A stretch of 64,000 nucleotides of DNA from Candidatus Methanoplasma cognatum (GTDB taxonomy: Archaea; Thermoplasmatota; Thermoplasmata; Methanomassiliicoccales; Methanomethylophilaceae), in the NCBI GenBank assembly GCA_009777615.1, contig WRLM01000001.1, positions 186,001 through 250,000 on the forward strand. The letters run 5' to 3'. The translations under genes were made by a program, and so were the position numbers. Positions 29,531 through 52,834 of this stretch are shown one piece after another. The number at the start of each line of letters is the position of its first letter. Position 1 is the stretch's first letter. The notes under the pieces were generated by a model. The model ran no database searches. It was not told the origin of the DNA and saw only the letters and a list, made by a program, of their open reading frames with translations.

Positions 29531-29668
29531 TTACATTATGCCAGCAACCGTATGGGTTCAAGAGCATGAGTAATCTGTTGTCGAATATAGCGGAAATCTG
29601 TGCATAAAGAGGAGATTAACCATTATATACAAATTATCTTGTTATCGCACTATATAGGTGAATATAGA

Positions 29669-32600
29669 ATGAGCATGGTTCGGTGGTTGCACATTTCAGA
29701 TTTACATTATGGTTATGAAAGCTACGTTACAATAGAGATGCGAACCAACATGATTAAGTCACTTCCAGAAATATTGAAAGTTAAAAATCCACCCGAGTAT
29801 ATTTTCATCACAGGGGATCTCCGCTATGCAAAAAACTGCGGAAATGAGTTTCCAGGCGAAATAGCCGACAGCATCAATGAGTTGATTAATGAGCTAAACA
29901 TATCTCCCAATAACGTCCACATCGTAATGGGCAATCATGATGTTACGCAAGAATATTGTCGAAAAGATATTGCCCCTTTGGTTCAAAAAGAATATGCAGA
30001 GACCCGAGCTGTAAGTGACGACCGAAAAAATACTCTCGAGAAATCACAGCACAAGTTCTACGAAGTCTACAAAGCCATCTGCGAACGCGAACCATCACCA
30101 TACCATTATTTTGTCGATGAAAATAACTTTAACATAATCTGTCTTAACACGGCATTTGCCTGTCCGGGTGGTGGTGATGGTGGCAACTTAATTGTTGATA
30201 TGAACATGGTGCAGGAAGCGCTTAATGACATTGATGCGACCAAGCCAGGAATTGTTCTGGCTCACCACGGCTTTGAGAGCTTGCAGAGTAGAGAGAAAGA
30301 ACAACTTGAAATTAAATTAAAGGAAAGCGGTGCACTTCTATATCTTTGTGGCCATGAGCATATGGCAAATCATCGAATTATCGCCGAAATGCGCGAGAAA
30401 ATTCGGCTGCATGAGTACGTGTGCGGAACTGGCATGGATAAGCTACCAACAGGTCAAGAAGCAGAGATGGTCATATTTTCTGGCGAGCTAGACACAGAAA
30501 AAAAAGAAGGGCACGTCCAGGCTTGGATATGGTCCGCCCGTTATGGAGAATGGCTCCCTCATCAAGGCTTTTCCTCTAAACAAGATGGCCTCAAACATGG
30601 CCGTAATTACTTCGACCAGAACCCTCCACAGAACCCTCCAAAGAATGCTATTACGCCAGATTTACAGGAAAAGTCAATAGGAATGTACAAAAAATACATA
30701 CAACATCAATGCGGGGAAATCAAGCTTGATGGAATGCCTGAGGATGATAAGATAGGGAGCAAAAACCTTACACTAGAAAAATTATTTATACCGACTAAAT
30801 TGGAGAAAGCATCTCACTTAATTCCATCATCTTCTGACGGAGGTGAATTCAAACCAATAACACGATCGGACTTTAGAGGAATTGTTCCATTCGAACTTAT
30901 TGCTGAACAACTTGCTCAAATTGAAAAAGGAGAGTGGAATCAGTATCAAGATGAAGATCTCTCTATAATCAAAAAATCTCTGGAATTCCTGAAAAGAGAT
31001 ATTTTAGTCCCAGACTCCAATAGAAACCAACACCTTTCGCAAGAAGAGACCGACTTCCAAGAAGCTATAGAGTCTCTTTTGTCACAAATAAAGGTGCTCA
31101 GGGACCAACTGCGCGAAAAAAATTTAATTATCCCCCCCAAACAGTCGGGGTTCCGCCGAGTAATTCTATCTGGCCCCGGCGGAGGCAAGACAACGCTATT
31201 GAAACGCCTGGCCACAGCGTATGCATTTCCTGAACGCCGGGTGGATTCAGAAATCGATGATTTTTTACCGGAACGTGAGCTGTTTCCAATATGGATTCGG
31301 TGCCGTGATCTAAAGGAAAAAGCAAAAGAGAAACTGGCTACAATCATAGAAACCATCCCATCTGGGTTCGGATTTCATTCAAATGATCAAGATATTGCCA
31401 CTGCATTCAAAGAAGAGGTGTTTACCCGTATTGAGAAGGGAGAAGTGCTTATATTGATTGATGGGTTAGATGAAATTACCCGTAAGGATCTACGCAAAAG
31501 TTTTGCTGAAGGAATCATTCAATTTTTAGATTTTCACCCCGAAGCGAACATCATCATTACTAGTCGCATCAGGGGATTTGAACACATAAGTGGTGGAAAG
31601 CTTGGTGAATTCCCACTGGCAGAGATTTCCCACCTTGATGATGAAGACATACGGCTACTCTGTTACAGGTGGCATAAAGTAATATACGGTGACCAAGCCG
31701 AAAAAAGCATACAAGATGCAAAAGTGCTCGCAGATATGATATTGGACAATGAAAAGATTCGTTTTTTGGCAAGAACTCCTCTTTTGCTCATGACTCTTTT
31801 ATTAGTAAAACGCCGCGTTGGGAAGTTACATACAAAGCGTGCTACACTGTATGAGGACTCTATCAAAGTGCTCCTAGAGACATGGAACCAGGAGGCGCAT
31901 GAACCGATTGATTTTGAAAAAGCTATGTGCCAGTTATCATATGTTGCATTTGAGATGATGCGAGAGGGGATTCAGACTATCGGAAAGCGAAAGCTCGTGT
32001 CACTATTAAAAAAGGTACGAAAAGACCTGCTCTCCTCAGATATTGAATCTCCGGCGGAATTCCTCGATCGTGTTGAGTTACGCAGTAGTTTATTGTCAAA
32101 ACGTGGTTATCGGCAAACAGGCAGTGGACTGGAGGAAGAATATGAGTTCCAGCATTTAACTTTTCAAGAATATATGGCGGCATTTGCGGTTGTGAAAGGT
32201 TACTATAGGGATGCAGACAAGGAAAAAAATTATCTGGATGTGTTAAAGAAGTTCTATGTTGATGAAAGCAAGGAAGAAATAATCCTTCTAGTTGCCGCAC
32301 AGGGGACCCGGAAAGATGTCACCCATATGGTTGAGTCGATCATAAGTCAGATCAAACGTGTTGATAAAAGAAAAGAAGATTCGGACGACACAATTCCCAC
32401 GTTGAGGAACTTGCTTATGAAAATTGTACACGACGAGGCACCGCTGACTGAAGAAACAAGAAATCAAATTTTTGTGGAAGTATTGCGTGATTCTATTCGG
32501 AGCAGTCAAATTCCGCTCTTCATCGATGTGTTAGAATCCAATCAAGGAGAAAAGTTCCGAATGTTCTTAAGAAATAATGAAAGAGGGGCCCCACTCCTTT

Positions 32601-33247
32601 CCGCCTTCGATCTTCAAAAAAATGAAGATGATCCGATTGATAAATGTGTCCATATGGTTATATCGGGAAGTAACGAGTACGAGAGTCGAAAATATGCATT
32701 GGATGTGCTCGATAATTTACTTTGGATGGCGCCGCCCCTATATACCTCTTCGAGAGAGGATGGCTTCTTAGAAAATGTTTTAAATTTTCTTGTTGAGATA
32801 GTTATGGAGCCTAGTAATGGAGGAGAGTCAATTAGTTCCGCATCTTGTTTGTATTGGATTTTACGGCCAGGTGTTAATACTTCTTCTGATTGGATTCCAA
32901 ATGGGTTTTCAAAACGGTTGATGAGCCTCAGTTATGAAAAAAGGAAAACGTGGAAGTTGGTTCGTCTGTTTGACGTATTGCCTATCTGCAATGAAAATGC
33001 TCATAGATTGCTTTATCTTGACTGCCAGAGCGAAATAAAGCAATTTTTACTAGAGAGTTTAACTAATGCAAACAATAATGAAAAAAGTGGCCTATATTGG
33101 GCTAATGTTTTGACCGGCGCGTGGCGATGGGATGAGGCTGAGGCAATGCTGGAAAGAATGTTTGCGGAAAAGTATGCACCCATACGCGATGAAATGAAGA
33201 AAAAGTTACAAATTATTAGGGCGGCCGCCGAAAGCGAGGAGATTTAA
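29669..33247 (+). CDS. Metallophosphoesterase-NACHT NTPase fusion (predicted STAND defence protein)
   Basis: A 1192-residue protein. Residues 1-290 form a calcineurin-like phosphoesterase with the metal motifs SDLH (11-13), TGDL, MGNHD, AHHG and GHEH. A linker leads to a NACHT NTPase: Walker A SGPGGGKTT (501-509), Walker B ILIDGLDEI (Asp598-Glu602), then ITSRIRGFE and the winged-helix region FQHLTFQEYMAAF. The last 350 residues look like helical sensor repeats. The ATG at 29669 follows AGGTG; a TATA box lies near 29623. NACHT STAND proteins sense invaders and unleash an effector; here the effector would be the phosphoesterase. The codon use is AT-rich against its upstream neighbours. Confidence 0.85.
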   Translation: MSMVRWLHISDLHYGYESYVTIEMRTNMIKSLPEILKVKNPPEYIFITGDLRYAKNCGNEFPGEIADSINELINELNISPNNVHIVMGNHDVTQEYCRKDIAPLVQKEYAETRAVSDDRKNTLEKSQHKFYEVYKAICEREPSPYHYFVDENNFNIICLNTAFACPGGGDGGNLIVDMNMVQEALNDIDATKPGIVLAHHGFESLQSREKEQLEIKLKESGALLYLCGHEHMANHRIIAEMREKIRLHEYVCGTGMDKLPTGQEAEMVIFSGELDTEKKEGHVQAWIWSARYGEWLPHQGFSSKQDGLKHGRNYFDQNPPQNPPKNAITPDLQEKSIGMYKKYIQHQCGEIKLDGMPEDDKIGSKNLTLEKLFIPTKLEKASHLIPSSSDGGEFKPITRSDFRGIVPFELIAEQLAQIEKGEWNQYQDEDLSIIKKSLEFLKRDILVPDSNRNQHLSQEETDFQEAIESLLSQIKVLRDQLREKNLIIPPKQSGFRRVILSGPGGGKTTLLKRLATAYAFPERRVDSEIDDFLPERELFPIWIRCRDLKEKAKEKLATIIETIPSGFGFHSNDQDIATAFKEEVFTRIEKGEVLILIDGLDEITRKDLRKSFAEGIIQFLDFHPEANIIITSRIRGFEHISGGKLGEFPLAEISHLDDEDIRLLCYRWHKVIYGDQAEKSIQDAKVLADMILDNEKIRFLARTPLLLMTLLLVKRRVGKLHTKRATLYEDSIKVLLETWNQEAHEPIDFEKAMCQLSYVAFEMMREGIQTIGKRKLVSLLKKVRKDLLSSDIESPAEFLDRVELRSSLLSKRGYRQTGSGLEEEYEFQHLTFQEYMAAFAVVKGYYRDADKEKNYLDVLKKFYVDESKEEIILLVAAQGTRKDVTHMVESIISQIKRVDKRKEDSDDTIPTLRNLLMKIVHDEAPLTEETRNQIFVEVLRDSIRSSQIPLFIDVLESNQGEKFRMFLRNNERGAPLLSAFDLQKNEDDPIDKCVHMVISGSNEYESRKYALDVLDNLLWMAPPLYTSSREDGFLENVLNFLVEIVMEPSNGGESISSASCLYWILRPGVNTSSDWIPNGFSKRLMSLSYEKRKTWKLVRLFDVLPICNENAHRLLYLDCQSEIKQFLLESLTNANNNEKSGLYWANVLTGAWRWDEAEAMLERMFAEKYAPIRDEMKKKLQIIRAAAESEEI

Positions 33248-39735: not shown

Positions 39736-40756
39736 GCTCTGGTGAAACCATAAGGAAGGATTAACCTCCCGCAGTGCAATTCACTCCCACGGCCGGCTGC
39801 TCCCTTAGAAAGAATGGCCGGCCTAGGATGGGATTGGTGTGCGCAGGAGGAGGTCAACCTCTGAACGCGATAGGCTGGCTTATGTTATTAAGGTCACGTC
39901 TATGGTGCTGGAGGGACTAGGTGTTCCGAGGTATTCCTCGGAACGCAGCAACAGGCTGTATGACGATCATATGAAGGTATCGCTGCTGATACTGAAACAG
40001 TATCTGGACGTTTCCTACATGGAGCTGTGTTCTATGTTGTCCTCTTTGAGGTTCTGGCGGAAGGACCGTGTTCCAGACCATTCCACGCTGGTGAAGTTCT
40101 CGAAAAGGTTCGGGACAGGTATCCTGGACAAGGTCCTGAGATATACTGCGCTGATGGTCTGCGGCGACGGAATGACCGCTGCCGTGGACTCGACGGGGTT
40201 CACATGTTCCTGCGCGTCCAGGCACTTCGTGAAGAGGCTGAGAGAGACGGGAGGGGAGACAGCATACGTGAACGTGGCCGTCAGAGGTTTTGCGAAAGCA
40301 TCCGTTGCCGTGGATACGTCCTCAAAGGTCATACTGGCCTGCGACTGCGTGGATTCGAACCATGCCGATGTGAAGAGGTTCACGTTCCTGGCCGACGATC
40401 TGGCGGAGGGCGGGTTCTCGATAAGGTATTTGGTCGCGGACAAAGGATACGATGCAGAGTACGTCCACAGGGAGATAACGGACAGGCTGGGGACGGATGC
40501 GATGATCCCCCTCAGGAACATGGCGGAGCCCTCATCGAACGGCAGGGTGAAGGCCAGAGGCTTCGACCGGGCCGTATACAATTCAAGATCCCAGGTGGAG
40601 GCCACGGATTCGATGGTCAAACGCAAGGCGGGGGATGTCGTATATGGAAGGACAAAAGCGGCGAGACACAGGTAGGTGCTGTTCAAATGTATAGCCCACA
40701 ACATCAGAAAGCTCATAGATCTGAAGCATTCACTTTAAGGATGGTTTCACAAGAGC
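39736..40756 (+). mobile_element. Insertion sequence of the IS4/IS5 superfamily with terminal inverted repeats
   Basis: Ends are GCTCTGGTGAAACCAT (39736-39751) and, inverted, ATGGTTTCACAAGAGC (40741-40756), matching at 15 of 16 positions. One transposase frame lies between them. No clear target-site duplication is visible in the immediate flanks. The element sits between a truncated DUF1016 pseudogene and the second ATP-grasp gene, and its GC-rich sequence contrasts with the AT-rich island around it. Confidence 0.85.
39839..40738 (+). CDS. IS transposase (DDE type) with an in-frame TAG
   Basis: A DDE transposase of the IS4/IS5 superfamily: first Asp in AAVDSTGFTCS, second in LVADKGYDAEY, and the Glu in YNSRSQVEATDSMVKRK. 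The frame meets TAG at 40673-40675, after 278 residues. It then continues in the same frame for 20 more residues that fit the family C terminus (VLFKCIAHNIRKLIDLKHSL) to a TAA at 40736. The TAG may be a nonsense mutation or may be read as pyrrolysine. The GTG at 39839 is the first start in the frame. Confidence 0.8.
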
Positions 40757-41832: not shown

Positions 41833-43014
41833 TCATACGGATAGGTGTTCATATAAGGCTATGCCTGCCCATACTAAAACTATGCAAGTAGCAATACAAA
41901 AGACTGCATAACTAATACTTATGAGATCCATTTTGCGATCCTTTTCAAAAATTCTAAGAACAATGGTGATAAGAACCATAAGCACCAGTATCAAAATGCC
42001 CCCCGTTATTAGGAGCAACCCAGCCGCCTTCGGGAAGTCTGAGTTGAAGGTCGATTGAAGAGATATTGTTATGAATGGCAGTAATGTAGCGAATATCACG
42101 AGGATTTGCATATATCTTTTTGAATTCTCTTCGCTTCTATTGACTGCATCTTTAATTTCAGGTATATTGGCGACTACCTTTTCAATTTCAGCTTGTTGTT
42201 TGTCCATTTTAGCATGTTTTTCAAATAGTTCCTTTTTTAGCTCCAGTACATCGATGTATCCCTTGATTGCTATGTACTCCGTTATTCTTGGCCAATAGTT
42301 GAACCTATCTGGATCTTCAGAGGCTATGGCACTGATCACACATTCTCTTGCCTCACTGAACTTACCCTCTTGGGCAAATAATTTGGCAATTATTGATTCA
42401 AGTTTTGAGTTCCTTCCGCCGTCTTTTATTCCCGTTAGGTGCATTGCATAATAATGATTCTTATAGGCGATCGCCTCATCAATTTGTTCCTTCTTCGATT
42501 CGCATATTTCCTCATAGTCTTTTTCAAAGTATTCTTTCGTTGTAGCCAGCACATTGAGGATACATTGTTTCTTATTGAATGTGGGTTCTAACTCGGATAA
42601 AAGTTCGAGGCATTTTTTTACTTCATTGATATTTGTTATTCCTTTATTTGCTAAAAAAGCGGCCTCGATCATGTTAAATGACTTGACTGATCTGAACAAT
42701 TCTCTATATTTTTCGATGTATTCTTTTTCTTTATTGTGCTGTGACATCCATCTTTGATAAGTGCACAGAACCCTCAGTGCAAAGAATCTTGAATCCAGGG
42801 TGTTTTTATCATTATCGAGAAATTTCTTTAGATATTTAAGGTGGTCTTCGTTATGGCCAACTTTTTTCGTAAATTTGAAAACAAAGTTTTCGATTTCCTG
42901 TTCATCATCCATAATCCATTCTTTTGGCACATCTTCTTTGCCGCATACTTTTTCTATAATCTCTGACGCATCTTCCAAATTAAACTGGGTTGGAAACTTT
43001 TTTCGAGGTTGCAT
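41833..43014 (-). CDS. Helical-repeat protein with three C-terminal membrane helices
   Basis: A 393-residue protein that I do not recognise. Residues 1-250 are helical and resemble degenerate TPR-type hairpins (for example KYLKKFLDNDKNTLDSRFFALRVLCTYQRW). A short coiled coil (KMDKQQAEIEKVVANIPEIKDAVNRSEENSKRY) leads to three hydrophobic helices at about 297-315, 324-350 and 362-385. A soluble sensor with a membrane-embedded C terminus is the layout of predicted pore or membrane effectors in conflict systems. It is the last gene of the minus-strand cassette, 173 bases after the TIR-like gene. Confidence 0.55.
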   Translation of the reverse strand: MQPRKKFPTQFNLEDASEIIEKVCGKEDVPKEWIMDDEQEIENFVFKFTKKVGHNEDHLKYLKKFLDNDKNTLDSRFFALRVLCTYQRWMSQHNKEKEYIEKYRELFRSVKSFNMIEAAFLANKGITNINEVKKCLELLSELEPTFNKKQCILNVLATTKEYFEKDYEEICESKKEQIDEAIAYKNHYYAMHLTGIKDGGRNSKLESIIAKLFAQEGKFSEARECVISAIASEDPDRFNYWPRITEYIAIKGYIDVLELKKELFEKHAKMDKQQAEIEKVVANIPEIKDAVNRSEENSKRYMQILVIFATLLPFITISLQSTFNSDFPKAAGLLLITGGILILVLMVLITIVLRIFEKDRKMDLISISYAVFCIATCIVLVWAGIALYEHLSV

Positions 43015-43187: not shown

Positions 43188-44030
43188 TCAGCCAAAGAAG
43201 TTGACGATACTGTCCCAATTGTTATAGAGCATGAGCAAGCATAAACCGAATACTCCGATGAACAGTATCATCATGATGATTGGCGTATTTTTTTCCGCTT
43301 CAGAATAAGATTTATATCCTCCCCCAATCGGATTGGTCATGTCCTTCCACTCTGCGTAAAACATCTTCGCCGGTAGTTCCTTCTCCATGATCTGGATGAT
43401 CCTGTATTTGCTGCGGTTTATCTTCCCTAAAGACTTGATGAACCTGAACCAAGACCATGAAATGAAGATCCCGGTACCGGAAAGAATAGTTGCTACTAAA
43501 GGTGTAAATCCGGAGTCGAGATCACTCAATACGATGATTGTGCCGATTATTGTAAGTATGGCACAACATATTGTTGCATATCTGTCTCCTGTTGTCTGCC
43601 TTCTTGTAATAAGGGACTCTGAGGAATCTATCAGAGTTCTGTACTGTCTCTCTAAAAGTTCTTTATCGCCTTCGGATAGTATTTCTATTTTCAAATTCTC
43701 TTCTGTCCAGGGTTCAAGGGCATCTTTTATTTTCTCAGGACATTTCTCACGATCACCTTTTTGTATCTCTATTATCTGTTTTTTGTTTTCTTCGGCTATT
43801 TTTTTCTCAATTCTCATATTATCTGTGTAATTATCTGCGGAAGTGAGGAAAGCCAGGACCAGCTCTGAGTTCATTATTTCCTTTTCTGCGATACCCTCCC
43901 AATCATCCACGTCGTTCTTAAGAATAAAGAATTTGAAATGTTTGAAGTTTTTATATACAAGGTTAGTACACTCGATGATGTCTTTTTGTTCTTTGAACGG
44001 ATGGATTACAAAAACATTCGATTTTTTCAT
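43188..44030 (-). CDS. TIR-like domain fused to a RipA-like membrane module
   Basis: A 280-residue protein. The N-terminal 110 residues form a Rossmann-like domain that resembles TIR-like (ThsB-type) domains: VFVIHPFKEQKDIIE, SELVLAFLTSADNYTD and IEKKIAEENKKQIIEI, with an acidic position (Glu75 or Glu80) where a TIR catalytic Glu would lie. Hydrophobic helices follow at about 152-169 and 176-194, then FRFIKSLGKINRSKYRIIQIMEKELPA, which recalls the RipA family of small membrane proteins, and a last helix at 250-268. A minus-strand TATA element at 44062-44069 may give it its own promoter. Confidence 0.6.
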   Translation of the reverse strand: MKKSNVFVIHPFKEQKDIIECTNLVYKNFKHFKFFILKNDVDDWEGIAEKEIMNSELVLAFLTSADNYTDNMRIEKKIAEENKKQIIEIQKGDREKCPEKIKDALEPWTEENLKIEILSEGDKELLERQYRTLIDSSESLITRRQTTGDRYATICCAILTIIGTIIVLSDLDSGFTPLVATILSGTGIFISWSWFRFIKSLGKINRSKYRIIQIMEKELPAKMFYAEWKDMTNPIGGGYKSYSEAEKNTPIIMMILFIGVFGLCLLMLYNNWDSIVNFFG

Positions 44031-44118: not shown

Positions 44119-44739
44119 TCATTCGAACTCGAGACGCATTTTTAGTTCCAAGTTGCCCCGGTAGTCTTTTTGCTCGGCGCCAATCTGCTTGAAACCGAAC
44201 TTTTCATATAATTTAATCGCTGCGATATTTTCTTTCAATACGACCAATTCTATGCGTGGCTCTCCGGTTTTTTTCGATATTTCTATAATCTTTTCCACAA
44301 TGGACGCTCCTATTCCCTGCCCTCGGTAATTTTCATCGACAGTAACATTACAAAGGGCATATTCTGTAGAAGCGGATTGTTTTTTGAAATAACTTATCAC
44401 ATTTTCATACTGATCCGGAACTTTCAGCCCATTTTTTTTGAAGGTATCGGCTATTATCTTATGATCATCATTTTCTTCTTTCCTCTGTAGCGCGGCCAAT
44501 CCTACAATCTCTTCCTTTCCGTTCCTCTCCATCGTTGCGACATGGTAATGATCATGGTAAAACCGTGACCCCTCTTTGTTAAGGAGGGTCTTCAATACAA
44601 AACGAGACGAATCACCATCTCCGAATAAATCGGGGTATAGGTACTTGTCTGTATCATAAATGAGATTGACTATTTGGTCCAAATCATCTCCTGACTCAAT
44701 TTTTCTTAATTTGAGATTACCCTTCAAGTGTCTGCCCAA
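44119..44739 (-). CDS. GNAT-family acetyltransferase
   Basis: A 206-residue GNAT with the acetyl-CoA loop ENYRGQGIGASIVEKII and the terminal AAIKLYEKFGFKQIG motif. The N-terminal half contains YLYPDLFGDGD, a fairly common segment in uncharacterised GNATs. It begins at TTG, about 53 bases after the toroid gene. A dyad CAACATA/TATGTTG (44757-44763 and 44774-44780) spans a TATA-like element ahead of it, so it may be independently regulated. Whether it modifies a cassette protein, a metabolite or a host target is unknown. Confidence 0.78.
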   Translation of the reverse strand: MGRHLKGNLKLRKIESGDDLDQIVNLIYDTDKYLYPDLFGDGDSSRFVLKTLLNKEGSRFYHDHYHVATMERNGKEEIVGLAALQRKEENDDHKIIADTFKKNGLKVPDQYENVISYFKKQSASTEYALCNVTVDENYRGQGIGASIVEKIIEISKKTGEPRIELVVLKENIAAIKLYEKFGFKQIGAEQKDYRGNLELKMRLEFE

Positions 44740-44792: not shown

Positions 44793-46343
44793 TCAATTTC
44801 GTCTATTTCCGAATCGTTTGACATTGGGTAAGATTTGGACAATACCAATTACGATTAAGACAATGGACACGATGATCGATGCAGAACTCGCTGCTGAACC
44901 TAAGACATCATCCAACCAGAAATAACTAATAAGCACAATCGCCGCTGCTGCAGAAAGGATTACCAATATCGTAAAGTGTCGTAGGAACTGGTTTTTGTAC
45001 TTGGCGCGGTCAAGCTCAAGCTCAAGTCTGTGTATTTTTCTCCTTTCTTCATCTTTTCGATCAAGCCTTAGTACATAGTCATAAAGGTCATATGAAGTAT
45101 ACCTTTCGAGTTTTAATGCTTCATCTTCCAGCCATTCTATGGATTTTGTAACTGCATTGACATAGAATGTCGTCAGAAATGTTGTGTGTAAATAGCTCCC
45201 ATCATCAAATGCGCGTTTTTCATCGTTAATCCACCTAAGGACCCTGAAAACGACTCCAACATCAGCCTTAACGGCAGTTTTACATTTTTTCGATTTTCTT
45301 AAACATGAATCCGCAAGAAGATAGGAGTATAAACATCGCAATGTGTCATAGGATCCTCCCCAATTGCCTGTACAGTCTTCACTGGCTTCCAGATATTCGC
45401 ATGCCGATTTTATGTATTTTCCAATTTCATAGGTTTTTTCGTTATTGCCATTTACATTAAGGACGTTGCTTGAATATTCATTGTATGATGCCAGTGCCTC
45501 CAATGCATCTGCGGTGCTGTTGTAGTCAGACCAATAATATCCTTTGTTCGATTTTTCTACGTCGACGCTTATTAGCAGGTGCTCTATCAAGTCGTCTAAG
45601 CACCCTCCGAGTGTCTTTACAGTCTGGTTATCTTTTAATTTCTTAGATTCCATCAGACATATGAACGTTATAGCTATCTGTGAAACGTCTGATATGGAGA
45701 TTTGTGAAAGTTCTGCTCCTGAGGAGGATATTTCCTCTCCTTTATCTTTCAGCCATTTGATACTAGCTTCCAGCCTCGTCATTACCTCGGCCTTTTCTTT
45801 TTCAATTGTCTTTTCTATTTTGTCCCACTCAAAGCTGTCAATTACTCTCACCATCGATGATATCACAATAGATGTGTCCCATATCGCAAAGTCATTCTCC
45901 ATAAATGGGTTGTATTTTATTTTGTCAAGTAGCCAGTTTAAATTATCCAGGCAGAATTTTTCTACTTCACTTTTACATTTCTCACCCTTTTCGCAGTTCT
46001 GTTTATAGCACCATATGAAAAAGTCTAAAGCTAATGCAGCTTCCCAGCAACTACCGGTTTTTTCAAAAAGAGGCCCGTTTTTCATGAACCATCCGAGTGA
46101 TGACTGGTCAGAACCAAAATTCTCAGCAGATGCTCCCAACTTTTTTCTGAGATTTTCGGAAAGAACCTCATCAGGTCCAAAAGGAGAGCGACATTTTTTC
46201 TGCTTCACATCGGATATTGTCATCTCTCCAGTATTTTCATTTCTCCATAAAATATTTATTATTACTGCCTTAGCCACATACTTCATCGGCGGAATGTTGA
46301 GGTCGGGACCAATCAGTTTCATCTCATAGAAGAACACAATCAT
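44793..46343 (-). CDS. Alpha/alpha-toroid-like protein with two C-terminal membrane helices
   Basis: A 516-residue protein. Repeats such as YYWSDYNSTADALEALASYNEY and GNWGGSYDTLRCLYSYLLAD have the spacing and aromatic/Gly pattern of the alpha/alpha toroid found in terpene cyclases and prenyltransferases. No catalytic DXDD-type motif is visible, so it is more likely a sensor scaffold. A charged coiled coil (RKDEERRKIHRLELELDRAKYKNQFLRH) leads to two membrane helices near 455-475 and 483-505. Its start overlaps the TIR-methyltransferase stop by ATGA, so the two are translationally coupled. Confidence 0.6.
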   Translation of the reverse strand: MIVFFYEMKLIGPDLNIPPMKYVAKAVIINILWRNENTGEMTISDVKQKKCRSPFGPDEVLSENLRKKLGASAENFGSDQSSLGWFMKNGPLFEKTGSCWEAALALDFFIWCYKQNCEKGEKCKSEVEKFCLDNLNWLLDKIKYNPFMENDFAIWDTSIVISSMVRVIDSFEWDKIEKTIEKEKAEVMTRLEASIKWLKDKGEEISSSGAELSQISISDVSQIAITFICLMESKKLKDNQTVKTLGGCLDDLIEHLLISVDVEKSNKGYYWSDYNSTADALEALASYNEYSSNVLNVNGNNEKTYEIGKYIKSACEYLEASEDCTGNWGGSYDTLRCLYSYLLADSCLRKSKKCKTAVKADVGVVFRVLRWINDEKRAFDDGSYLHTTFLTTFYVNAVTKSIEWLEDEALKLERYTSYDLYDYVLRLDRKDEERRKIHRLELELDRAKYKNQFLRHFTILVILSAAAAIVLISYFWLDDVLGSAASSASIIVSIVLIVIGIVQILPNVKRFGNRRN

Positions 46344-47659
46344 TTTGCGACATACACAATAATCCCTGCAATCATCATGAACTCTTTGCCGTAAAATTCA
46401 TCCTCAATATTTTTCTTGTTTTTACAATACCACTCGGTATCGGTTATTGCATATGGATTATTATCATCAATAGACAGTGCTTCTTCTAAAACAATTGGGA
46501 TCAGACCAAAGTACGTTTGGAAAAGATCTTTTTTCACTTCGATCGGGACGCCGATCGTACTCAGCCCCGTATGTTTTAAGGAAATGTCATTGATGTCCGC
46601 TCCTTTTAGCGTGTAATATATCTCTCTTCCGCTTTTCCTGTATCCGCTTGTGTTGTATTTCGACAGGATATCGAATGCCTCTTCAAAGATCAAGTTGTTG
46701 TCCGGATATGCGATTAAAAAACCATCATCGATGTCGGCGATGATCAGACATCCGTTTTCTGATAATACTCTTTTCAGGACCATGATGACTTTGGATGGAT
46801 CCTTAAGGAAGAGTAACAAAAATGAAATGTTTATAATATCAAAGGAACAGATGTCATTTTCCTTCATTACTTCTAACAGTTTATCTTCAAATTCGCGCGA
46901 TTCGCAATCGGAGCAATAAAATTTGATTTTGTCGGACCCGTATTTTTCGTTTGAAAGTTTTATGGCTTCTTCGTTGATATCCATGCCGATTACTTTGTTC
47001 AACTCGGGCCTAATTACGACCGAAGTGGAAATCTGATGTCCTCCGCCGGATCCGACATCCAGCACATTAAATGATTTAAGATCCTTTGTTATATTTTCAT
47101 AGATTCTATCCAGATAAAAGTTCACAAATCTCGCTTGGGCCATACTGCGCGATAATTCCTTCTCTATAGACGGTGTATCTCCGAGGAAATCGTTCTTTCT
47201 TCGCTCAGATGAAGCTTTGGCCTTTTGTGAGGTTGGTCCAACAATGTTCTCTACCTTTGTTACCAGCTCGCCGATAAATCTCTCGAGATCGGATGTCATG
47301 GCGTCTATCCAGTTCATCCTGTTGATGTAATACTCCATTTCATCGGATACTTTCGGGGAGTCCACTTTGAACGGAATTATCACAAGCCCGTTATCAACTC
47401 TTTTGTAAGCTTTTTCAACCTCGTTCAAAACATGGTGCGAATCTGATGCTTCTGTGTTCAAAATAACAACAAACACCTTGCAGCTGTTGATCGCATTGGT
47501 AATGGCGCGGGCATATGGGCCGGTTCCCGCGTCTCTAGGCGCATACCAACATCTTATCCTTTTATCCTCAAGCGCATGGCAGACAGCATCCGCGACAGGT
47601 TTGGAAGTTTCGTGTTTATAGCTTATGAAGACATCAATATCATTCATAGACATATGCAT
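46340..47659 (-). CDS. TIR domain fused to a class I SAM-dependent methyltransferase
   Basis: A 439-residue protein. The TIR domain covers residues 8-140, with DVFISYKHE, the conserved CWYAPRDAGTGPYARAI box and the likely catalytic Glu80 in HHVLNEVEKAY. A short linker leads to a class I methyltransferase with motif I VLDVGSGGG (199-207), the acidic strand end VIGMDINEEAI and FDIINISFLLLFL. TIR domains of this kind often cleave NAD or make cyclic ADP-ribose signals. A TIR-methyltransferase fusion is unusual. Met1, Met3 and Met5 are all possible starts. The next gene overlaps its stop by four bases. Confidence 0.8.
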   Translation of the reverse strand: MHMSMNDIDVFISYKHETSKPVADAVCHALEDKRIRCWYAPRDAGTGPYARAITNAINSCKVFVVILNTEASDSHHVLNEVEKAYKRVDNGLVIIPFKVDSPKVSDEMEYYINRMNWIDAMTSDLERFIGELVTKVENIVGPTSQKAKASSERRKNDFLGDTPSIEKELSRSMAQARFVNFYLDRIYENITKDLKSFNVLDVGSGGGHQISTSVVIRPELNKVIGMDINEEAIKLSNEKYGSDKIKFYCSDCESREFEDKLLEVMKENDICSFDIINISFLLLFLKDPSKVIMVLKRVLSENGCLIIADIDDGFLIAYPDNNLIFEEAFDILSKYNTSGYRKSGREIYYTLKGADINDISLKHTGLSTIGVPIEVKKDLFQTYFGLIPIVLEEALSIDDNNPYAITDTEWYCKNKKNIEDEFYGKEFMMIAGIIVYVAK

Positions 47660-47958: not shown

Positions 47959-49136
47959 ATGACAAAAGATACACAGAAGGCCGGAACAGCAGACACCGAC
48001 AGACATGCCGAAAAGAGACCGAACAGACCGTCAGACAAAACTGCCGTAAAGAAGGAATCGGAACCTTCCGAACTCGGTCCGCCCGCAATGGTGAATGATA
48101 AGCAGGGCATTGAAAAAGAGTTGTTCAATGATGTCCGAGAAGTTCTGAACATAGCGAGGAACAAAGCATATGCTGCCGTCAACAACGCTATGGTCGAGGC
48201 ATATTGGAACATTGGGCGGCTCATCGTAGAGAAACAGGGCGGCGCAGACCGAGCGGCATACGGTAACCGGTTGATTGAAGGATTGTCGAGACAGCTCACT
48301 GCCGAATTCAGAAGGGGATTTGATATGACCAACCTTAGACGAATGCGTCAACTCTATTTGATGATCCCAAATGATGGCACAGTGTGCCACGAATTGAGTT
48401 GGTCTCATTACCGTCTAATAATGAGGGTAGAAGACCCTAAAGCCAGAGAGTTCTATATCGGCGAAAGCGTCAGGAGCGGTTGGAGTACACGCCAGCTCGA
48501 ACGGCAGATCAACACGCTCTTCTACGAGCGTTTCCTGGCCACTCGGGCGGAGAGCAGACAGGCCATAGCGGAGGAGATACTGACCAAAAACAGGGGCTGA
48601 CCCCTGCGGATGTCATTAAAGATCCTTATGTCCTTGAATTCCTAGGCCTCGGACACGATAAGGAATTCTTCGAGAGCGATCTGGAAAGCGCTCTTTTATC
48701 GCACATCCAGAAATTCCTTCTTGAACTGGGCAGAGGCTTCGCTTTCGAGGCCCGCCAGAAAAGGATAAGCTTCGACGGACGCCACTTCTACATTGACCTG
48801 GTCTTTTACAACTACCGTCTGAAATGCTTTGTCCTGATAGACCTCAAAACGGGTGACCTGACTCATCAGGATATGGGCCAGATGCAGATGTATGTGAACT
48901 ATTACACCAGAGAGATGATGGAGGAGGGCGACAACGAACCCATAGGGATGATCCTCTGTGCGGATAAGAGCGAAAGCATCGTGAGGTACACACTCCCGGA
49001 GGGAGGGAATAAGCAGATATTCACATCGAAATACAAGCTGCATCTGCCGACGGAAGAAGAACTCGCCCGCGAGCTCTCTGCGGAAAGAGAAATGCTGTTG
49101 CGCGAGAAAAAGCTCAGGAGGGAAACAGACAACTGA
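47959..49136 (+). pseudogene. DUF1016 (YhcG-type) PDDEXK nuclease gene, interrupted by a -1 frameshift
   Basis: The first frame (47959-48600, 213 residues) is the DUF1016 N-terminal domain, with AYWNIGRLIVEKQGG and the RRMRQLYLMIP helix. The second frame carries the PDDEXK domain from LTPADVIKDPYVLEFLGL, with FYIDLVFYN and the ...VLIDLKTG strand. The two are joined if ribosomes shift -1 at the A5 run in ACCAAAAACAGG (48583-48594). A one-base indel in that run, an assembly error or true frameshifting would all explain it. Intact relatives are restriction-system-associated or anti-plasmid nucleases. A related, more decayed copy lies at 39129. Confidence 0.82.
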
Positions 49137-51533: not shown

Positions 51534-52703
51534 TCACTCCTCAAACAACTTCCTCTTTCTTCTTTTGAAACGGTTGTCAACGTAGTTCAGAGTGTCCATC
51601 CCGTTAAGTTCGACACTTGAAGGTCCCGATCTTACGAAGAACGCTTCCTGTTTCCCCTCTTTCAGGAAAACGGGGCTGTCGCTCTTTCTGCAGACGATCC
51701 TCATCACTCCCTTTCCCTCATAATCCGACAATCGGAATGAGATGTACGGAAGGAACTCATTCCCGATCTGGCTTGCGATCAAGTTCGTAAGGTGAAGGTT
51801 CAGCTTATCTCTGCTGTCGAAGCTGGATTCGTCTATTCCGGCAACCGTTCCGTCGTCCGCGATCCCGATGAGAAGGGTCCCGCCTCTGCTGTTAAGGAAT
51901 GCCACCAGCGTTTTCATGACGGCCTTTTCCATCCTGGCGTCCTTCTCTCCCGTGGCGAGGTTCGTTCTCAATGTGGATTTATACTCCACCTTCTCGCCTT
52001 CGCCGCTTTTGATGGCCTTCTCTATCTCCATCGTCTCATATTCTTCTATTCCCAGCGTCGCGGCGTTGTTCTCAAGGTACCTCCTAACAGCTTTCTTCAC
52101 TACGAGCGAACGTCTTCCGGAATAGAATATCAGAACGACCGATAAGGCGCCGAGTATCACCAGAAGAAGCTGCTCCATCGTTTCATCCATGGTCTTGGCC
52201 GGCACGTCAAGAGCTAAGCCGAGGTAATACTGCAGCATCAGCATCAGGGTGAACATCGAAAGCGCGACAGATATGGAAACAAAGACCACTCTCGCCGCCC
52301 TCCCTCCCGCTGCATCAGGCGCAATGCCCATGAAGGAATACGTCACCGCCAATCCGCCTAGCCCCATCACAGCTCCGAAAAGACAGTCCATGACGATCCC
52401 CAGCGGGGTCCCGCTGCCGAAGGACCTTCCGAGAACGATAAGGATCATCAGCCCCACGATCAGGAATATCACGAAAGGCGGGATATGCACCGTCGTCCTG
52501 TCTGTGAACAGAGCGTCCGCAAGTATGATGATAACCGGTACGGCAATGAACACTCCCAGGAAATTCCCGAGGAATATTCCTCCAACCAGGACCATCACGG
52601 AAAAGATCATCATTGCCGCATAGCTTGCGTAAAGCAACCTGCTGACGTATCTTCCTACCGAATCTCCCCCTTCCGCAGGAGGTTCCGTTCCTTCGGGCAT
52701 CAT
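51534..52703 (-). CDS. Membrane protein with a Schlafen/AlbA_2-type domain
   Basis: A 389-residue protein. Residues 1-190 contain about seven hydrophobic helices. The C-terminal part, from EGEKVEYKSTLRTNL, is an AlbA_2 (Schlafen AlbA-like) domain with the FLNSRGGTLLIGIADDGTVAGI and NEFLPYISFRLSD segments. These domains bind nucleotides or nucleic acid, and here they would face the cytoplasm from a membrane anchor. The start at the double ATG (52698-52703) avoids a long unrelated extension. No partner gene is obvious. Confidence 0.7.
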   Translation of the reverse strand: MMPEGTEPPAEGGDSVGRYVSRLLYASYAAMMIFSVMVLVGGIFLGNFLGVFIAVPVIIILADALFTDRTTVHIPPFVIFLIVGLMILIVLGRSFGSGTPLGIVMDCLFGAVMGLGGLAVTYSFMGIAPDAAGGRAARVVFVSISVALSMFTLMLMLQYYLGLALDVPAKTMDETMEQLLLVILGALSVVLIFYSGRRSLVVKKAVRRYLENNAATLGIEEYETMEIEKAIKSGEGEKVEYKSTLRTNLATGEKDARMEKAVMKTLVAFLNSRGGTLLIGIADDGTVAGIDESSFDSRDKLNLHLTNLIASQIGNEFLPYISFRLSDYEGKGVMRIVCRKSDSPVFLKEGKQEAFFVRSGPSSVELNGMDTLNYVDNRFKRRKRKLFEE

Positions 52704-52834
52704 TTCTCTATGAGCGGGCCCGTATTTATTATTACTCTGGTCAGCCAGATGCCGGCCGGCACCGTTGGATATGCGGGATTCCACCAGAGACTATTAAATA
52801 ACATAAGGAGGTCAGGTGTTTCGGAGTAATCGCA

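Follow-up and report, generated by a model that had tools for sequence, protein, structure and literature searches.

A family of TIR-methyltransferase fusion proteins in Candidatus Methanoplasma and gut Firmicutes, with a methyltransferase fold that may act as a ligand sensor

TIR proteins are common to the immunity of bacteria, plants and animals, and the main question about most of them is what they sense. The gene described here, a fusion of a TIR domain with a methyltransferase (MTase) module, has likenesses to several known systems. With Thoeris it shares a TIR enzyme, a possible nucleotide signal and, possibly, a separate gene for a membrane-protein effector. Like the TIR effectors of CBASS, Pycsar and SPARTA (TIR-SAVED, TIR-STING, PycTIR, TIR-APAZ), it places an N-terminal TIR ahead of what would be a ligand-sensing C-terminal module, and its best PADLOC match is the TIR part of the TIR-SAVED model (E 6e-9). 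As in STAND/NLR-like proteins, TIR and PNP are interchangeable as N-terminal effectors on one C-terminal architecture; exchange of these two at the N-terminus is familiar from other modules (PMC8195603). The fold and the SAM motifs are, in turn, those of class I small-molecule MTases of the 3mgg type.

The gene lies in a stretch of 64,000 nucleotides (the window) from the 1.62 Mb genome of the gut archaeon Candidatus Methanoplasma cognatum. It and its parts are as follows.

46340..47659, minus strand: TIR-methyltransferase fusion gene, 439 aa, in a family of 37 non-redundant homologues
47294..47632, minus strand: TIR_2 domain, aa 10-122 (Pfam PF13676, E 3.4e-16)
47420..47422, minus strand: codon of Glu80, the TIR catalytic-type glutamate, aligned with Glu in 34/34 family TIR domains
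46343..47170, minus strand: class I methyltransferase module with C-terminal extension, aa 164-439 (Pfam, model, Foldseek)
47039..47065, minus strand: SAM-binding motif I, VLDVGSGGG, aa 199-207, intact in 33/37 members and decayed in one 4-member clade
46724..46735, minus strand: Asp-Ile-Asp-Asp after strand 5, aa 309-312, on the acceptor side (D311 in 37/37, D312 in 36/37)
46637..46639, minus strand: Arg341 codon (GxRxxGR motif), R in 37/37 members

The reading frame starts with ATG and runs through 439 codons with no internal stop, so the two domains do stand in a single frame, as the first-pass annotation had claimed. The TIR domain is present where it had been placed, with the CWYAPRDAGTGPYARAI box and Glu80, and the combination of the TIR_2 match with this aligned glutamate is that of a predicted TIR NADase/cyclase domain. 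The proposed class I methyltransferase carrying VLDVGSGGG is equally well borne out: Methyltransf_31 is matched at aa 197-311 (E 5.1e-12; this match and that to TIR_2 both exceed the Pfam gathering scores), and the motif, D227 and a seven-strand core, taken from alignment and model, identify a class I SAM-dependent MTase fold. The seven strands appear in order (197-202, 220-227, 245-249, 273-279, 299-310, 359-364, 433-438) in an AlphaFold2 model calculated from a 7-row alignment (mean pLDDT 72, pTM 0.56), a model of moderate confidence that does not give the inter-domain arrangement. In a Foldseek search with this model the best PDB match is 3mgg (E 5.7e-13), and the top matches are small-molecule/peptide-type MTases, with no DNA or rRNA MTases among them. 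Pfam and NCBIfam scans of the 439-aa protein find no NTPase family. With a TIR and an MTase module that carries D311-D312 and R341, the protein has the features by which we define the TIR-MTase family.

Searches with a DNA pattern and with profiles returned 39 related ORFs, 37 of them non-redundant. The same fusion, which the first-pass annotation had proposed to look for elsewhere, is thus recovered, and since the same order of TIR and MTase in one frame recurs in more than 30 relatives from other genomes, it is neither a product of chance nor a chimeric ORF. The hosts are Clostridia and Bacilli of the gut and rumen and one further archaeon, Candidatus Methanoplasma porotermitis (G014), which belongs to the same genus and is the nearest relative of the window genome to have the module; these two are the only carriers of the MTase module among 390 genomes of the phylum Thermoplasmatota. 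The DNA pattern D-x-DD-x6-PDN, which represents the strand-5 motif, yielded five more members over 257 billion bases (Clostridia, Clostridiales, Christensenellaceae, Bacilli), and profile searches were then started from the genomes found with it. In the order of G844, 12/147 sampled genomes have a fused member, and in that of G418, 9/151, that is, approximately 6-8% of the sampled genomes of two Firmicutes orders. Elsewhere they are rare: a sample of 391 genomes spanning the class of G416 contained just one, and none was found in 65 genomes from the class of a Bacteroidales contig, the latter search being run without a positive control. One family member, L174, has no TIR. An exact-peptide scan of genome contigs with the window protein gave no match. 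The TIR-MTase was not found in viral contigs: two-row alignment scans gave no match, 18 viral matches to a related DNA pattern were all due to chance, and a viral candidate (L184) was rejected as a TIR with a different C-terminus. Plasmid and phage sequences searched by tblastn contain no full-length match, one phage record matching the TIR part alone. At one locus a Cas9-like protein of 1070 aa is encoded immediately downstream of the TIR-MTase gene (L149:3757-6969, plus strand).

The first-pass annotation had regarded widespread annotation of the same fusion as evidence against its reading. Although some gut Firmicutes do carry the fusion as well, a full-length model of it is absent from PADLOC 2.0 and NCBIfam, and no description of a TIR-methyltransferase fusion was found in the open-access literature searched. 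Within this literature and these models, the TIR-MTase is a so far undescribed protein family, which current defence finders would probably label just "TIR" or "methyltransferase".

Whether the catalytic residues of the module are conserved, or only those that bind SAM, had also been raised at the outset, and the comparison turns out in favor of the acceptor side. Of the 37 members, 33 have an intact SAM motif I together with the acid that follows strand 2; in all of these 33 position 227 is D or E and Gln175 is invariant. In the other four (L105, L157, L158, L164) motif I is decayed, the ribose-binding acid is found in none (position 227 is C, C, C and A, respectively), and Gln175 is replaced by E or N. 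As these four form one clade in the tree (support 98/97), a single evolutionary event is indicated, a point that counts against the sensor reading given below. Nonetheless they retain D311, D312, R341, F273, P319 and D320, as well as the TIR glutamate. Across the whole family the only departure from D312 is a Glu. In the topology of class I MTases strands 4 and 5 end at the acceptor side, and it is from this topology, rather than from a ligand-bound structure, that we assign these residues to it. In the nearest stand-alone MTases examined D312 is replaced (K in L096, H in L003 and L005) and R341 is unmatched, so that the two residues are marks of the family and not general MTase features. Loss of the SAM site with retention of the acceptor-side residues leads us to infer that selection has kept the ligand pocket, and that one lineage could dispense with the cofactor site. 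At the other end of the protein, placing the TIR subtypes on the MTase tree takes no fewer than 7 changes, an indication that exchange or remodelling has affected the N-terminal part more readily than the module.

A different N-terminus is found in Ca. Methanoplasma porotermitis (G014, locus L064), where a PNP_UDP_1 nucleosidase (Pfam, E 2e-17) takes the place of the TIR. The approximately 160 aa that follow it are not recognised by the family TIR profile, and the possibility that the middle of this protein is a degenerate TIR was therefore rejected. A GNAT gene beside it (L064:2537-3136, plus strand) has a single in-frame TAG, its codon 118, between two stretches of good GNAT sequence; this lineage uses TAG for pyrrolysine, and both readthrough and a pseudogene are possible. 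The locus is adjoined by a gene for a TIR + SLOG protein (L064:3595-5625, minus strand; LD_cluster2, E 3e-47). The first-pass proposal that the MTase domain is the sensor finds partial, indirect support here: TIR subtypes vary and PNP can replace them, while the C-terminal module is constant. Taken with the pattern of conserved residues, this suggests that the MTase half works mainly as a sensor that controls the firing of the TIR.

Around the fusion gene the window contains the following features.

44793..46343, minus strand: 516-aa all-helical protein with a C-terminal two-TM-type segment, possibly an alpha/alpha-toroid; ATGA overlap with the TIR-MTase stop
44119..44739, minus strand: GNAT acetyltransferase of the TIR-MTase-associated subfamily (Pfam Acetyltransf_1, E 8e-16)
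43188..44030, minus strand: 8xMP-family membrane protein (Pfam PF24838, E 7e-22), 88 bases beyond the GNAT; system membership uncertain
41833..43014, minus strand (the same strand): 393-aa membrane protein; system membership uncertain
39839-40675: transposase-like ORF
29600-33247, plus strand: metallophosphatase-NACHT STAND-type protein, 1215 aa (PADLOC "Effector, endonuclease", E 5e-43)
47959-49136, plus strand: YhcG-type nuclease pair, DUF1016_N and PDDEXK halves in two overlapping reading frames

The TIR-MTase gene, the GNAT gene and the membrane-protein gene between them form one apparent operon: the stop of the first overlaps the start of the 516-aa gene as ATGA (46340-46343), and 53 bases separate the latter from the GNAT gene. 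The 516-aa protein has weak NCBIfam matches to SLATT_1 (E 0.008) and to a squalene-cyclase-like family (E 0.054), is all-helix in a single-sequence model of low confidence (pLDDT 45), and has no relative in the 390 Thermoplasmatota genomes. Neither it nor the 8xMP protein has a meaningful sequence match in the PDB; the N-terminal 90 residues of the latter appear Rossmann/TIR-like by eye and match no Pfam family. The two frames of the YhcG-type pair suggest a frameshift in what is usually a single gene.

Besides near-copy loci and apparent housekeeping or surface proteins, clustering of the neighbours reveals one recurrent family, the GNAT. It directly adjoins the fusion gene in L064, L157, L158, L161 and L164, with gaps of -54 to 4 bases, and is one gene away in the window. 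About 36 loci, each spanning about 12 kb, contain no other match to a profile of this subfamily at E <= 1e-15. Among 121 genomes from one order just two sequences match the profile at E <= 1e-20; both adjoin a fusion gene, and both belong to the profile's training set. Two copies lie outside the profile, one beside the PNP-MTase (G014) and one overlapping a TIR gene (G416). The latter TIR (L183:5558-7262, plus strand; E 1e-21) is fused to a segment that is GNAT-like by eye (Pfam E 0.2), and its gene overlaps the GNAT gene by 20 bases, a TIR/transferase pairing with no MTase. A different GNAT, joined to a tryptophanyl-tRNA-synthetase-like (class I, W/Y) domain, is encoded 14 bases upstream of a TIR-MTase at L104:4363-5718 (plus strand). 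All the same, only 6 of the 37 members have the GNAT adjacent, and at most loci a constant partner is lacking; the case for a fixed multi-gene mechanism is the weaker for it. As for membrane proteins, a large TM-containing protein is encoded downstream in L108, L111, L152 and L157, and E-H-x-R-W/Y segments occur either within it or in the gene that follows. In a phage protein RyR domains hold ADP-ribose signals through such H and W residues (PMC13232231). Pfam recognises no RyR domain in these channel-like neighbours, and an assignment made from the H-x-x-W motif is a lead only.

In our judgment the best explanation of these observations, to which we give an even chance, is a TIR effector whose switch is a ligand-binding module derived from an MTase; from its domains and neighbourhood, the protein probably has a role in defence. 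The N-terminal TIR would consume NAD+ or produce a cyclic-ADP-ribose-type signal, under the control of a C-terminal module, sensor rather than catalyst, that would bind a small ligand in what was once the acceptor pocket and, in most members, SAM as a co-ligand. The trigger would be phage infection. The GNAT may set the threshold by acting either on the ligand of the module or on the protein itself, as a dedicated regulator or ligand-modifier, and the membrane protein of the window is the likely executor, a downstream effector that would answer the TIR product.

Other explanations differ in what the MTase fold is supposed to do. One is a bifunctional signalling enzyme, a variant of Thoeris in which MTase and GNAT decorate an ADP-ribose-type product of the TIR, or the carrier of that product, and so make a private signal that the membrane partner would receive. 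We consider this unlikely, even though the SAM site is intact in 33/37 members, the window protein included, the GNAT alongside is a second group-transfer enzyme, the fold is nearest to small-molecule MTases and membrane proteins adjoin several members: the clade with no SAM site retains the TIR and the acceptor-side residues, the PNP version has no recognisable TIR and hence no TIR product to methylate, and the GNAT is missing at most loci. If the module simply held SAM and freed the TIR upon SAM shortage or attack by a phage SAM-degrading enzyme, the TIR glutamate would hardly be expected to persist in a clade devoid of SAM-binding residues, nor would a pure SAM gauge need an acceptor side that is better conserved (D311 and R341 in 37/37) than its cofactor site; the window protein and most of its relatives do have a complete SAM-binding motif, yet a SAM-level sensor seems to us quite improbable. 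The methylation of a TIR product and the sensing of SAM depletion, both advanced by the first-pass annotation, are therefore not general for the family, on account of the SAM-lost clade and, again for both, of the PNP-MTase. They could still apply where the SAM site is kept, as in the window, and with that site intact the window MTase may simply be active.

It is also conceivable that MTase and GNAT modify a component of the cell for self-protection, and that failure or hijack of this modification releases the TIR as a toxin. The linkage of two different group-transfer enzymes to a TIR would fit such a guard, as would the GNAT with a tryptophanyl-tRNA-synthetase-like domain upstream of the L104 member; given neighbourhoods with no conserved target gene and the lack of a GNAT at most loci, we regard it as improbable. 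Least credible of all is the accidental joining of an ordinary metabolic or resistance methyltransferase to a TIR with no immune role: the module does look like generic small-molecule MTases, but an invariant TIR glutamate (34/34) and the repeated pairing of TIR subtypes with the same module speak against accident.

Returning to the ligand-switched TIR effector, the sensing part would be an enzyme fold whose small-molecule pocket can be recognised and in which evolution has split the cofactor site from the acceptor site; this separation makes the question of the ligand testable, by setting members that have the SAM site beside those that have lost it, and the GNAT found alongside hints at the ligand chemistry. 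A wider reading, which we offer tentatively and with some doubt, is that of a new type of TIR/PNP immune system, spread between gut Firmicutes and methanogenic archaea, in which an MTase fold turned into a ligand receptor, with the SAM site abandoned in one clade, has a membrane effector and a dedicated acetyltransferase as its partners.

Set against the known systems, the differences are as follows. In contrast to Thoeris, the TIR is fused to an MTase module and ThsB models match weakly and locally; among the scanned window neighbours (29-53 kb) none matches ThsA (SIR2-SLOG or macro-TM). The module is not SAVED, STING, cyclic-mononucleotide or Argonaute-like, unlike those of CBASS, Pycsar and SPARTA, and the scanned window neighbours include no cyclase (CD-NTase/pyrimidine) or Argonaute gene, except for a weak local match of the gene at 51534-52784 to a pAgo model (PADLOC, E 3e-4). 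While STAND/NLR-like proteins have an NTPase, the TIR-MTase has none, and its constant part is an MTase fold. Finally, that fold departs from MTases of the 3mgg type in its fusion to a TIR and in Asp312 and Arg341, which are specific to the family relative to the nearest stand-alone MTases examined.
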